From Protofrankia sp. CiT1 (GTDB lineage: Bacteria; Actinomycetota; Actinomycetes; Frankiales; Frankiaceae), in NCBI RefSeq assembly GCF_917627385.1, contig NZ_CAKJTL010000136.1, positions 47,256 to 82,090 on the forward strand: a stretch of DNA of 34,835 bases. The letters are read 5' to 3'. The stretch's first letter is position 1; each line of letters opens with the position of its first letter. The notes beneath the pieces were generated by a model. That model was not told the origin of the DNA. It saw only the letters and a program-made list of their open reading frames with translations, and did not search any database. Shown here piece after piece: positions 9,671-28,600 of this stretch. The position numbers and the translations under genes were made by a program.

Positions 9671-10777
9671 TCACCGAGGGGAGGCCGGGACGAACGGCGG
9701 CCGCACAACCGCCATCGTCGACAGCCGGCCGCGCACGTCCACCTGGACGGTGTCGCCCTCGCCGACGGTGCGGTCGATCAGGGCGAGCCCGATACCTGTC
9801 CGCAGCGTCGGCGAGAACGTCCCGGTGGTGACCTCGCCCACGGGCGCCCCCGCTGGGCCGTACACCGTCATGTGCGGCCGTGGAATGCCCCGGTCGGTGG
9901 CGCGCAGCCCCCACAGCAGCCGCGCCGGGCCGGTGGCGCGCTCCGCCAGCAGCGCATCCCGGCCCCAGAACCGCTGCTTGCCCCAGCCCACCGCCCAATC
10001 CACCCGGGCCTGCACCGGAGTGATCGATGTCGACAGGTCCTGGCCGTGCAGCGGATAGCCCATCTCGGTCCGCAGGGTGTCGCGGGCGCCGAGCCCACAG
10101 GGCAGGGCTCCGAGCGGGGCGCCCGCGGCGGTCAGCGCGTCCCACAGCGCGGGCGTGTCCGCCCACCGGGACACGAGCTCGAAACCATGTTCACCGGTGT
10201 AGCCCGACCGGCACACGATCACCTCTGTACCGGCACTCGGCCAGCTGGCCCGGACGAAACTCATGTAGGCCCCGCTGGTGGGCAGGCCCAGCAACGACAT
10301 CAGCTCCGCCGAGCGCGGGCCCTGCACAGCGACTATCCCGAAGGCCGTGTGCAGATTGTCGACGGCCACGCCGGGCGGTGCGGCGGCGGCGAGCCGGCGG
10401 ACGACGTCCACGGTGTTGGCCGCATTGGGGACGAGAAAGACCTCGGAGTCGGCGTACAGGTACGCAATAAGATCGTCGGCCACACCGCCGCTCTCCTCAT
10501 CGCAGCACAACGTGTACTGGGCCCGGCCGGGAGCGATCCGAGAGAGATCATTGGTAAGAACGGAGTTCACGAAAGCCGCCGCTCCCGGGCCGTGTACCCG
10601 GGCCTTGCCGAGGTGGCTGACGTCGAAGATCCCGACGGCCGACCGGACCGCCGCGTGTTCCTTCAGGACGCCCCCGCGGGGATACTCGATGGGCATCTCC
10701 CAGCCGCCGAAGTCGGCCAGCTTGGCGCCCAGCGCCACGTGCCGATCGTGCAGCGCCGACCGCGACAGTTCGCCCAT
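9671..10777 (-). CDS. gcvT: GcvT, glycine cleavage system aminomethyltransferase
   Basis: A 368-residue T-protein that moves the methylene group from aminomethyl-lipoyl H-protein to tetrahydrofolate, releasing ammonia. Motifs: [17 protein letters not shown] (residues about 16-32), [44 protein letters not shown]-type [34 protein letters not shown] and [12 protein letters not shown] near the C-terminus. No gcvH or gcvP is in the window. The ATG at 10777 lacks a ribosome binding site but is 6 nt after TAGCCT, so the mRNA is probably leaderless. The promoter lies inside a large palindrome shared with pepA. No glycine riboswitch was seen. Confidence 0.95.
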
Positions 10778-10784
10778 GCTCGCA

Positions 10785-10830
10785 GGCTAGTCCTGTCTTC
10801 CGCACGCACGTGCGGAAGACAGGACTAGCC
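10785..10830. promoter_or_regulatory. 46-nt perfect palindrome between gcvT and pepA
   Basis: Two perfect 21-bp arms (10785-10805 and 10810-10830; core GTCCTGTCTTCCGCAC) flank a GCAC centre. The left end overlaps the presumed gcvT -10 box (TAGCCT on the minus strand, 10784-10789) and the rest covers the -35 region, so it could be a high-affinity operator. It could also form a very stable hairpin or cruciform, or be a copy of a dispersed palindromic element. No other full copy is in the window. Confidence 0.75.
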
Positions 10831-10931
10831 CCGCGCCCCGCCCGCGGCACGGTGCGGGGCCCCGGCCTCGCGGACGGGGCGTCCGGCGGGGCAGCGTCCC
10901 CTGCTGTGACAGCCTCTCCCGCGGTGTTCCG

Positions 10932-10943
10932 TAGTCTCTCGGC
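10932..10943 (+). promoter_or_regulatory. Leaderless -10 box of pepA
   Basis: TAGTCT (10932-10937) lies 6 nt upstream of the pepA ATG and there is no ribosome binding site. This spacing places transcription initiation at or beside the start codon. Confidence 0.5.
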
Positions 10944-12560
10944 ATGACCGTGACTGCCGTGACGACATCATCCGTGCTGGACCTCGACACCGACGCGCTG
11001 GTGATAGGTATCGCGGCGGGCGCGGACGGGCCGATGCCGCTGGGTGGTGCCGAAACGCTGGACGCGGCCCTCGGCGGCCGCCTCGCCCAGGTGCTGGCCA
11101 GCCTCGGCGCGACCGGAAAGGCAGGTGACCTCGTCCGGTTCGCCACGCTCGGCATCCTGCCCTTCCCCACCGTGGTCGCGGTCGGCCTCGGGCCAGCCGG
11201 GCCGGCCGCCGGTGACCGTGATCCCGCTGGCGGCGGGATCGACGTCGACCACGAGACGCTGCGCAGAGCATCGGGCGCCGCGACGCGGGCGCTGGCCGGC
11301 ACCGCCCGCGTCGCGACCACCCTCGCCCTGGCCGCCGGCCCGCCCGGAACAGGCCAGCTACGGGCGGTCGCCGAAGGTGCGCTGCTCGGCGCCTACTCCT
11401 TCGACACCTTCCGGGCTGCCTCCCTGGGCGACCGGCGTCCTCCGGTCCAGGAGATCACGCTCGTCGTGGACGGCCCGTCCGAGGCCGCCGCCCAGGACGC
11501 CGTGCGCCGGGCCGCCGTGTCCGTGGACGCCGTCGCGCTGGCCCGGGATCTCGTCAACACACCGCCTGGGCACCTGCCGCCCGCGGAATTCGCCGAGATC
11601 GCGGCCCGGCGGGCCACCGAGGCCGGTGTGGCCGTCGCGGTACTCGACGAGAAGGCGCTGGCCGACGGCGAGTTCGGCGGGATCCTCGGGGTCGGCCAGG
11701 GATCGGTGAACCCGCCGAGGCTGGTCCATCTCAGCTGGCGGCCCGCTGGTACGGACCCGGCCAGCCCGCCCGCGCTGACCTTCGTCGGCAAGGGAATCAC
11801 CTTCGACTCCGGCGGCCTGTCCCTGAAACCCGCGAGCGCGATGGAGTGGATGAAGACCGACATGGCCGGCGCGGCCAGCGTGCTCGCCGCTGTCATCGCC
11901 GCCGCCCGGCTGAACCTGGCGGTCAGCGTCAGCGCATGGATACCGCTGGCCGAGAACATGCCGTCCGGGGAGGCGATCCGGCCAGGCGACGTCCTCACCC
12001 TGCGAGGCGGCACCCGGGTCGAGGTTCTCAACACCGATGCCGAGGGACGGCTGGTGCTCGGTGACGCCATCGCCCGTGCCGCGCAGGACTCCCCCGACCT
12101 CATTGTGACCGTCGCGACGCTCACCGGTGCGCAGATCGTGGCGCTGGGCCAGCGCACCAGCGGTGTGATGGGCCGTGACGACGCGGTGGGACAAGTCGTC
12201 GCCGCGGCCCGCGCCGCCGGTGAGGCGGTGTGGCCGATGCCGCTGCCGCCGGAGCTGCGCAAGGTGCTCGAGTCGGCCATCGCGGACCTTGCCAACATCG
12301 GCAGCGGCAACCGGGATGGCGGCATGCTGGTGGCCGCGCAGTTCCTGAGCGCCTTCGTGCCCGATCACATGCCGTGGGCACATATCGATATGGCCGGGCC
12401 GGCCTGGAACGCGGGCGAACCATACGGTCACACCCCGAAGGGCGGTACCGGTGTGATAGTACGAACCCTGCTCCAGCTGGCCGAGAACATCTCCGCGGCG
12501 AACATCTCCGCGGCGCCAGCGCCCCACGCCGAGCCGGGCGAACAAACTACCAGCGAGTAG
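10944..12560 (+). CDS. pepA: Leucyl aminopeptidase (M17 family)
   Basis: A 538-residue cytosolic aminopeptidase with two metal ions that removes N-terminal residues from peptides. The N-terminal macro-like domain spans about 1-200. The catalytic domain carries VGKGITFDSGGLSLKP, with the metal-binding Lys and Asp, then MKTDMAGAASVLA and the family signature NTDAEGRLVLGDAI. The C-terminal WAHIDMAGPAWN and PKGGTGVIVRTLLQL are also typical. After the family's usual end there is a short variable tail that includes a duplicated SAANISAA segment. The ATG start is preceded by a TAGTCT box at leaderless spacing. lpdA follows after 134 bp. Confidence 0.97.
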   Translation: MTVTAVTTSSVLDLDTDALVIGIAAGADGPMPLGGAETLDAALGGRLAQVLASLGATGKAGDLVRFATLGILPFPTVVAVGLGPAGPAAGDRDPAGGGIDVDHETLRRASGAATRALAGTARVATTLALAAGPPGTGQLRAVAEGALLGAYSFDTFRAASLGDRRPPVQEITLVVDGPSEAAAQDAVRRAAVSVDAVALARDLVNTPPGHLPPAEFAEIAARRATEAGVAVAVLDEKALADGEFGGILGVGQGSVNPPRLVHLSWRPAGTDPASPPALTFVGKGITFDSGGLSLKPASAMEWMKTDMAGAASVLAAVIAAARLNLAVSVSAWIPLAENMPSGEAIRPGDVLTLRGGTRVEVLNTDAEGRLVLGDAIARAAQDSPDLIVTVATLTGAQIVALGQRTSGVMGRDDAVGQVVAAARAAGEAVWPMPLPPELRKVLESAIADLANIGSGNRDGGMLVAAQFLSAFVPDHMPWAHIDMAGPAWNAGEPYGHTPKGGTGVIVRTLLQLAENISAANISAAPAPHAEPGEQTTSE

Positions 12561-25615: not shown

Positions 25616-25628
25616 TCGTCACCATCGC

Positions 25629-25686
25629 GGATAGCGGGCTTTCCCGTGCCACACCCATGGCGTCGCACGGGGAAAGCCCACTATCC
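25629..25686. terminator. Long bidirectional hairpin between glnII and glnE
   Basis: Arms at 25629-25649 and 25665-25686 pair over about 21 positions with one mismatch and one extra C (GGATAGCGGGCTTTCCCGTG against GGATAGTGGGCTTTCCCCGTG-type complement), leaving a 15-nt loop. The right arm includes the last two codons of glnE. Each direction has three T or A residues inside the stem but no tail tract. Confidence 0.8.
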
Positions 25687-28600
25687 GACGGACGGCCCAG
25701 CTACCGCTTCGCGGGCGAAAAGAGCCTCGGCCACCGCGCGCGCACGTGCGCTCATCCGCTGGTAGTCGCCGAGCAACGCCTCGCTCTGGTCCGCCGCGTA
25801 GCCGACCGCCCGCGCGACCCTGGCCAGCGCCCGCGGTTCACGCGGCAGCACGTCCCCGGGACGCCCGCGGGCCAGCGTGATCGCGTTGCGGAGCCGGGAC
25901 GCGAAGATCCATGCGTCCGCCAGGGCCGCGGCCTCGGCAGGGTCGAGCAGGCCGGCCGCGGTGGCCGCCCGAAGCCCGGCAAGCGTTGACGTCGTACGCA
26001 ACGCCGCTATCGCCCGGCCGTGACGCAGCTGCAGCACCTGCACCACCCACTCCACATCGGTAAGGCCGCCGGGCCCGAGTTTCAGATGCAGGGAACGATC
26101 AACGCCCCGCGGGATGCGCTCGGCCTCCATCCTGCCTCGCAGCCGGACGACCTCGGCCACCGTGCCAGGGGGCAGAAACGCCGGGTAGCGGATCTCATCC
26201 ACCCAGTCGCGGAACCGGTCGCCCAGTTCCGTGTCGCCGGCGACCGGCCGCGCCCGCAACAGCGCCTGTGCCTCCCAGCCTGCCGACCACCGGCGAAAGT
26301 AGGCCGCGTAACTGGCCGGCGTACGGGTCATCGGGCCCGCGCTGCCCTCCGGGCGCAGCTGCACGTCAAGGATCAGCGGCGGGTCGCCGGCGGGCACGGC
26401 GAGCAGCCGGCGCAGTTCGGCCACGACCGCACCCGCGGCATCGGCCGCTTCGCTGTCGGTGACACCGATCCCAGCACCGGCTGTCGTGCCGTCCGCCCGG
26501 CCATCGATCGGCTCGTGGACGAACACGACATCCGCGTCGCTGCCGTAGGACAGTTCACCACCGCCGAGACGGCCCATGGCCATCACCGCGATCCGTACCG
26601 GCAGCGGCCGGCCGGCCTGTCGCTCGAAGCGCCGTTCCGCCACGAACAGAGCGGCCTCGATGGTCGCGGCCGCCGCGTCCGACAGCGCCCGGCCGACCGC
26701 GGCGGCGTCCAGCAGCCCGAGCACATCCGCGCAGGCAACCCGGACGAGTTCGACCCGACGTACCGCCCGTGCCCGCCCAACCGCCTGCTCCCCGGACGGA
26801 TTGCGGCGGGCAACCGCGATCATTACCTGAACCAGCTGGTCACGGGTGCGGGGACGCAGGTCGTCGATAGTCCGCAGCAGCCGCACCGATTCCGGCGCGC
26901 GCTGCATCAGGTCCGCGGCATAGCTGCTCGTCGCCAGTACGCGGCACAGCCGTTCAGCCGCACCGCTGTCGTCCCGCAGCAGCCGCAGATACCAGGGCGT
27001 GTGGCCCAGCGCATCGCTGACCTGACGGTAGGCGAGCAGACCGGCGTCGGGGTCGGCCGCGTCGGCGAACCAATGCAACATCGCCGGGAGCAGGCGGCGT
27101 TGGATCGTGGCCGTCCGGCTGACACCGTTGGTCAGCGCCTCGATGTGGCGCAGCGCGCGTGCGGTGTCGGCAAACCCCAGCGCCGCCAGCCGATCCCGGG
27201 CCTCCGCGGGCGTGAGCCGGACCTCCTCGACCGACAGCCGTGCCACCGCCGCCAGCAATGGCTGGTAGAAAAGCCGCTCGTGCAGCCGGCGCACGAACCG
27301 GGCGACCCGGGCATGCTCGTTCTGGATCTCCTCCGCGGATGTGAAACCAAGAGATCGGGCCAACCAGCGCAGCTCACCGGGGTCGCGGGGCAGGGTGTGC
27401 ACCCGGCGGAGCCGTTGCAGCTGCAGGCGGTGCTCGGTAGCTCGCAGGAAGCGGTACGCGTTCGCGAGACCGGCCGCGTCCCGGCGGGCCACATAGCCAC
27501 CGCGGGCGAGCGCGTCGAGCGCGGACAGCGTCGAGACCGTCCGCAGCTTGGGGTCGGTCCGGCCGTGGACGAGCTGGAGCAGCTGGACGGCGAACTCGAC
27601 ATCGCGCAGCCCGCCCGGACCGAGTTTGAGGTTACGGTCAGCGTCTCCCGGCGGCAGCGACCGTTCCACCCGCCGCCGCATCGTCTGGACGTCGCTGACG
27701 AACCCCGGCCGCGACGCGGCCGACCAGACCAGCGGCCTGACCGCGGCGCAGAACCGCGCTCCCAGTTCATGGTCGCCCGCGACCGGGCGCGCCTTGAGCA
27801 GCGCCTGGAACTCCCAGGTTCTCGCCCATCGCCGATAGTAGGCGTCGTGGCTGGCCAGCGTACGCACCAGCGGGCCGTCCCGGCCCTCGGGCCGCAGCCC
27901 CACGTCGAGCTGGAACAACATGCCCTCACGGGTGACCGCCCCACACGCACGGACCATCCCCTCCGCGAGACGGGTGGCCACCTCCAGCGCGGCGGCCTCG
28001 TCGGCCCGGTCGTCCTGAGTACCGCCGCCGGACCGTCCAGGTTCCGCTACGAACAGGACGTCGACGTCGCTGACATAGTTCAGCTCCCGGCCACCGCACT
28101 TACCCATACCGATGACGGCGAGACGAACCGGCGCCGCCGCCGGCCGCACCGCCGACCGCGCCACGGCGAGCGCGGTGTCAAGGGCGGCTCCGGCGAGGCC
28201 GGCAAGCTCCGCGGTGGCATCATCAAAGGACACAGCGCCGGTGAGATCACGAGCCGCGAGGACGAACAGAGCACGACGATAGGCAACGCGCAGCGCGTCC
28301 AGAACATCGGTACCGTCCCCGACGGCGCGCGGCTCGGCCTCCTGCGGGTCCGCTCCGACCGCACGCAGCAGGCGCGCACGGGTGACGCGGTCGTTCGGCG
28401 CGGCCCGCAGCACGCCGTCGTCAGCGATCACCCGCCAGTCGGTGGGATGGCGGACCAGATGGTCGCCGAGCGCGGTACTCGCACCGAGCACCGCGACGAG
28501 CCGGCCGCGCAGCCCCGGCTGACCGGCCAACGCCGCGAGCAGCTCACGCCCGGCCGCGGGCGGCGCTGTCGCCACGATCCGTTCCAGCGCCGCGAGCGCC

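Follow-up and report, generated by a model that had tools for sequence, protein, structure and literature searches.

In this study, the spacer between two divergent genes, gcvT and pepA, was investigated in a window of 34,835 nucleotides, the window being the whole stretch of DNA that was analysed. The identities of both genes were confirmed by family models, and their positions are collected in Table 1 together with those of the features described below. The spacer harbors a perfect palindrome of 46 bp, which consists of two exact 22-bp arms (10785-10806 and 10809-10830) around a 2-nt centre, CA, and reads GG CTAG T CCTGTCTTCCGCACG CA CGTGCGGAAGACAGG A CTAG CC on the plus strand. The sequence-only reading had described 21-bp arms around a centre of 4 nt; the two descriptions cover identical sequence of 46 nt and differ in whether the innermost pair, which stays open in a folded single strand, is counted. 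As that reading had also observed, the palindrome covers most of the putative gcvT -10 box TAGCCT and lies 113 bp from the ATG of pepA (10944).

Table 1. Features of the gcvT-pepA spacer and its flanking genes, in window positions
Feature	Position	Strand	Basis
gcvT, aminomethyltransferase of the glycine cleavage system	9671..10777	-	Pfam GCV_T, NCBIfam gcvT
Putative gcvT -10 box TAGCCT, 6 nt before the ATG (10777), leaderless layout, apparently restored by the target duplication	10784..10789	-	Sequence comparison
Palindrome, 46 bp, 22-bp arms, centre CA	10785..10830		Sequence, shuffles, folding
Target duplication CTAG, left copy (on the minus strand it supplies TAG of the gcvT -10 box)	10787..10790		Single CTAG (CTAA in one species) at that place in four congeners
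Inserted 34-bp remnant (32-bp core with T before and A after it) composed of two joined IS1634-family terminal inverted repeats, left end first on the minus strand	10791..10824	-	38-bp difference from the empty site = 34 bp + one CTAG; minus-strand core matches intact left end 24/24
Right-end (RE) portion of the remnant, GTGCGGAAGACAGG, which shares GTGCGG (10800-10805, putative deletion junction) with the LE portion	10792..10805	-	Predicted product = observed 32 bp
Left-end (LE) part of the remnant, CCTGTCTTCCGCACGTGCGTGCGG	10800..10823	-	Identical to LE of intact elements L042/L063
Target duplication CTAG, right copy	10825..10828		Congener comparison
Neighbouring ancestral hairpin CCCC...GGGG, outside the insertion	10829..10859		Position kept in all congeners, arm sequences differ
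pepA, leucyl aminopeptidase, divergent from gcvT	10944..12560	+	Peptidase_M17

The length and perfection of this palindrome had been singled out as exceptional, and comparison with shuffled sequence bears this out. With a loop of 0-6 nt allowed, the longest exact arm measured 22 bp in the window versus 9-11 bp across five shuffled windows, and the number of such arms expected by chance is approximately 3e-7 per window and 4e-5 per genome. Folding of the single strand gave a z of -12.4. The palindrome occurs once in its own genome (5.02 Mb in 191 contigs) and remained single across 35 Frankiaceae genomes even when 3 mismatches were tolerated, which fits a one-off scar. The layout with CTAG on both sides was absent from the other short palindromes with a similar core that were inspected (L044, L102-L105 and L107). 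The sequence-only reading had proposed that many dispersed copies would favour a repeat element over an operator; no such dispersal was seen for the whole palindrome, whereas a single arm did prove to be dispersed in relatives, as the ends of transposons.

Comparison with the genus discloses how the spacer looked without the palindrome. In four congeners the gcvT-pepA spacer is the same but reads GCAGGCTAGCCCC (in one of them CTAACCCC) where the window has GCAGG-CTAG-[34 bp]-CTAG-CCCC. When the flanks in the window are joined, the arrangement of the congeners is reproduced exactly, the difference of 38 bp being made up of 34 bp and one CTAG, and the window therefore carries a lineage-specific 34-bp insertion with CTAG duplicated. 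The suggestion that the palindrome might be a recently inserted palindromic element is thus supported, as it is missing from the same site in four congeners and is built of transposon ends.

The source of these ends was recognized when related genomes were searched with the DNA around the palindrome, for many loci matched the palindrome part alone. Each such locus represented the terminus of a mobile element and shared the sequence CTAG-N-CCTGTCTTCCGCACGTGCGTGCGGTGAGACAG..., and the DNA beyond the CTAG differed from case to case. Each arm of the palindrome is, in sequence, the terminal inverted repeat (15 bp, CCTGTCTTCCGCACG) of an insertion sequence of the IS1634 family that other Frankiaceae carry. 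The left end (LE) adjoins CTAG at many Frankiaceae loci, and its carriers named by a public genome scan are Frankia nepalensis, Parafrankia soli and Frankia canadensis. The gene that adjoins the LE inside the element encodes an IS1634 transposase (NF033559). Elements complete at both ends and flanked by a target duplication were found at L050 (1,760 bp, TCTAGG), L101 (CCTAGC) and L053 (GCTAGC), as well as in a more distant form at L081 (TGTCCT). The window's own genome also holds a complete element, L072, of 1,776 bp with the duplication CTAC and a repeat that differs in one base; it is the closest copy in this assembly, in which no full-length element with exactly the ends of the palindrome was detected. 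The complete elements are 1.4-1.8 kb long, with the end signature C-----YT and a duplication of about 6 bp, and so agree with the IS1634 family as defined in the literature (PMC2266710); for one element, ISGka5, a 6-bp target duplication has been seen experimentally (PMC8024623). The signature is likewise present in CCTGTCTT, with C at position 1 and T and T at positions 7-8.

The gcvT feature thus shares with the IS1634 family its C-----YT ends and terminal repeats identical to those of elements with the NF033559 transposase; unlike the family members, it consists of the terminal repeats alone and has no transposase. Since only 2 bp separate the two repeats, it is a remnant and not an intact member of the family. 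The Frankiaceae subgroup of IS1634 is distinguished by a preference for CTAG targets, and literature searches for IS1634 combined with CTAG returned nothing. This tetranucleotide is strongly avoided in the window (1-34835), with 8 occurrences observed versus approximately 98 expected from base composition, two of the 8 being those that flank the footprint. A general targeting of -10 boxes by the element was also considered and rejected: CTAGNNT with a start codon at 4-10 nt was observed at 1 of 22 insertion ends, the gcvT site alone, versus 9% of all CTAGs, with no enrichment.

We consider it very probable that an IS1634-family element left the palindrome behind as its footprint, through a "nearly precise excision" like that of Tn10 or an equivalent internal deletion. 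This reading draws on a peculiarity of the LE of intact elements, in which an inverted copy of part of the element's own terminal repeat (CGTGCGG) lies just inside the repeat. As this inner copy is inverted, it has the same orientation as the matching part of the right terminal repeat (GTGCGGAAGAC...), of which it is a direct repeat, and the longest direct repeat common to both ends of one intact element is GTGCGG. When the LE and RE of L063 (Parafrankia soli) are joined at GTGCGG, the product, CCTGTCTTCCGCACGTGCGTGCGGAAGACAGG, is identical to the observed 32-bp minus-strand core; the RE of L043, an element of the same genus, joined to the same LE, gives 31 matches out of 32. Before the junction, the minus strand matches the intact LE in 24 of 24 positions, versus 22 for the plus strand, and this difference, together with the central TG, indicates that the remnant is oriented with its left end first on the minus strand. 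Given this TG at the centre, the transposase gene would formerly have pointed in the same direction as gcvT.

The course of events may be pictured as follows. An IS1634-family element of approximately 1.8 kb, whose relatives persist intact in other Frankiaceae, was inserted at the CTAG within the gcvT -10 box and duplicated CTAG, as comparison shows. A deletion between the two copies of GTGCGG would then have removed the entire interior and joined the terminal repeats into one perfect fold-back, in exact agreement with the observed sequence; its most likely mechanism is replication slippage across a hairpin of the element ends. The Tn10 system offers a close parallel, as there too an element with inverted repeats is lost between short direct repeats inside its ends, and what stays behind is a short palindrome between the copies of the target duplication. 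The palindrome that remains after nearly precise excision of Tn10 is about 50 bp in length. The gcvT footprint likewise displays an empty site in relatives, a target duplication, and a junction at a short direct repeat of both ends. Unlike the case of the composite Tn10, it derives from a single IS1634-family insertion sequence, has a 32-bp core, and is a natural footprint in a genome instead of the outcome of a selection experiment. Copy-choice slippage between short direct repeats is a supported mechanism according to the work of d'Alencon et al., as summarised in PMC12524634.

The exact repeat at the footprint is 4 bp (CTAG), as in L072 (flanks ACTACC/GCTACA), versus the 6 bp duplicated by four intact relatives. 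The 6-mers at the footprint are GCTAGT on the left and ACTAGC on the right, each one base off GCTAGC, and the two odd bases are mutually complementary. These bases fit either a 4-bp duplication, which L072 suggests, or a change in one base beside the element, transferred from one arm to the other in the hairpin; the transposon origin holds alike under both.

The same complementary bases bear on a related possibility, in which an imperfect hairpin of the LE (CCTGTCTTCCGCACG TG CGTGCGGTGAGACAG) was made perfect by copying within the hairpin, the flanking base included, which would yield the symmetric T and A. The LE is itself a quasi-palindrome, and the T on the left and the A on the right of the repeats are complementary and do not form a 6-bp direct duplication. 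We nevertheless regard this template switching as unlikely, since the missing interior and the duplicated CTAG on the right would still have to be accounted for, and a plain deletion between LE and RE already yields the exact core. It is very unlikely that the 34-bp fold-back is itself a MITE-like non-autonomous element, moved by an IS1634 transposase acting on the back-to-back terminal repeats. Both terminal repeats and the CTAG duplication are present as such an element demands, but several dispersed copies would be expected in place of the single one in the 35 genomes, and, given what is generally known of DDE transposases, synapsis is implausible for repeats only 2 bp apart.

The other alternative named in the sequence-only reading was a strong regulator site. 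As an operator, the palindrome would bind a dimeric protein that controls gcvT, pepA or both, and its perfect two-fold symmetry and placement over the -10 box would speak for this. The palindrome is, however, missing from the same promoter in four congeners, so that orthologous conservation is lacking, and it has no further copy in the genome, while the transposon ends account for its full sequence; we hold this claim to be highly improbable, though a secondary effect through binding of a transposase or a host protein to the palindrome could occur. Least probable of all is an RNA element of gcvT, whether riboswitch or terminator. The palindrome can fold into a hairpin, but no Rfam family reached its gathering threshold in the window or in the gcvT loci of 12 relatives, and a match to mir-2300 was weak, far below threshold, and of the generic kind that any perfect hairpin gives. 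No terminator-like T tail was found at the palindrome; moreover, with a transcript beginning at the ATG, to which the position of the -10 box points, the palindrome would lie outside the mRNA. The replacement of a glycine riboswitch by the palindrome, as had been proposed, was not sustained, because Rfam detected none in the window or at the gcvT loci of these relatives, so that nothing was replaced, and because the start of gcvT looks leaderless.

TAGCCT stands 6-8 nt before the ATG of gcvT in all five congeners, which suggests that the gcvT promoter is leaderless, and TANNNT-like boxes occur at a similar distance from the gcvT start in other actinomycetes. A consensus -35 was not found in the region around the gcvT promoter. 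As the CTAG target is part of the -10 box, its duplication would have rebuilt the box, and only the upstream sequence, including an ancestral hairpin, was displaced, by 38 bp; for this reason the footprint probably has little regulatory effect on gcvT. It is highly improbable that a CTAG-seeking IS1634 subgroup tends toward the TAGNNT -10 boxes of leaderless actinobacterial promoters, rebuilds the box through target duplication and leaves perfect fold-backs as new regulatory DNA, with the gcvT palindrome as a domesticated part of its promoter.

The pepA gene has a comparable arrangement, with TAGTCT at 10932-10937, exactly 6 nt before its ATG, like the TAGCCT of gcvT, and this TAGNCT leaderless layout is conserved in the genus. 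Between these two apparently leaderless divergent promoters, and directly adjoining the insertion, sits the 31-nt hairpin mentioned above (CCCCGCGCC...GGTGCGGGG). It was observed at the same place in all five congeners with constant CCCC/GGGG feet, the remaining arm sequence being different, with compensating changes, so that the hairpin appears to change fast.

Other classes of short palindrome with links to transposons resemble the gcvT feature in part. REP/REPIN and similar repeats are also short extragenic palindromes of transposon ancestry, but they are multi-copy and tied to RAYT-type transposases, whereas the gcvT palindrome is single-copy and has the ends of a DDE transposon. The inverted-repeat-replacing transposition of IS1272 likewise links a short inverted repeat to an insertion sequence (PMC5678879). 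IS1272, however, replaces a pre-existing palindrome and makes no target duplication (PMC5678879), whereas the empty gcvT site has no palindrome and CTAG was duplicated.

The gcvT palindrome is thus an unusually clear example of an ordinary and known kind of genome scar. It illustrates that a promoter palindrome, however striking and perfect, can be the scar of a transposon rather than an operator, and it is a clean example from nature in which the ends of intact elements predict such a scar base for base. It also indicates that a -10 box can survive being hit by an element whose target duplication is short. The finding is of use in annotation, where fewer false operators would be called, and leaves the understanding of glycine cleavage control unchanged.

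Further fold-backs were noticed during the analysis. In another Frankiaceae genus, what appears to be a single locus in two species (L104 and L105, ~1501) holds an almost perfect palindrome, GTCCTCCGCAC(G)TGTGCGGAGGAC, which has compensating outer pairs and resembles the terminal repeat of the insertion sequence in L072. At 1994-2040 of L044, an imperfect fold-back with IS1634-like ends (GCTGCCTTCCGCACG...TGCGGAAGGCAGGGCTAG) adjoins sequence that is repeated in one genome, and is possibly another deletion footprint. The window itself harbors a second strong inverted repeat at 25628-25687, with 18-nt arms that are 94% complementary (CGGATAGCGGGCTTTCCC / GGGAAAGCCCACTATCCG) and 24 nt between them.
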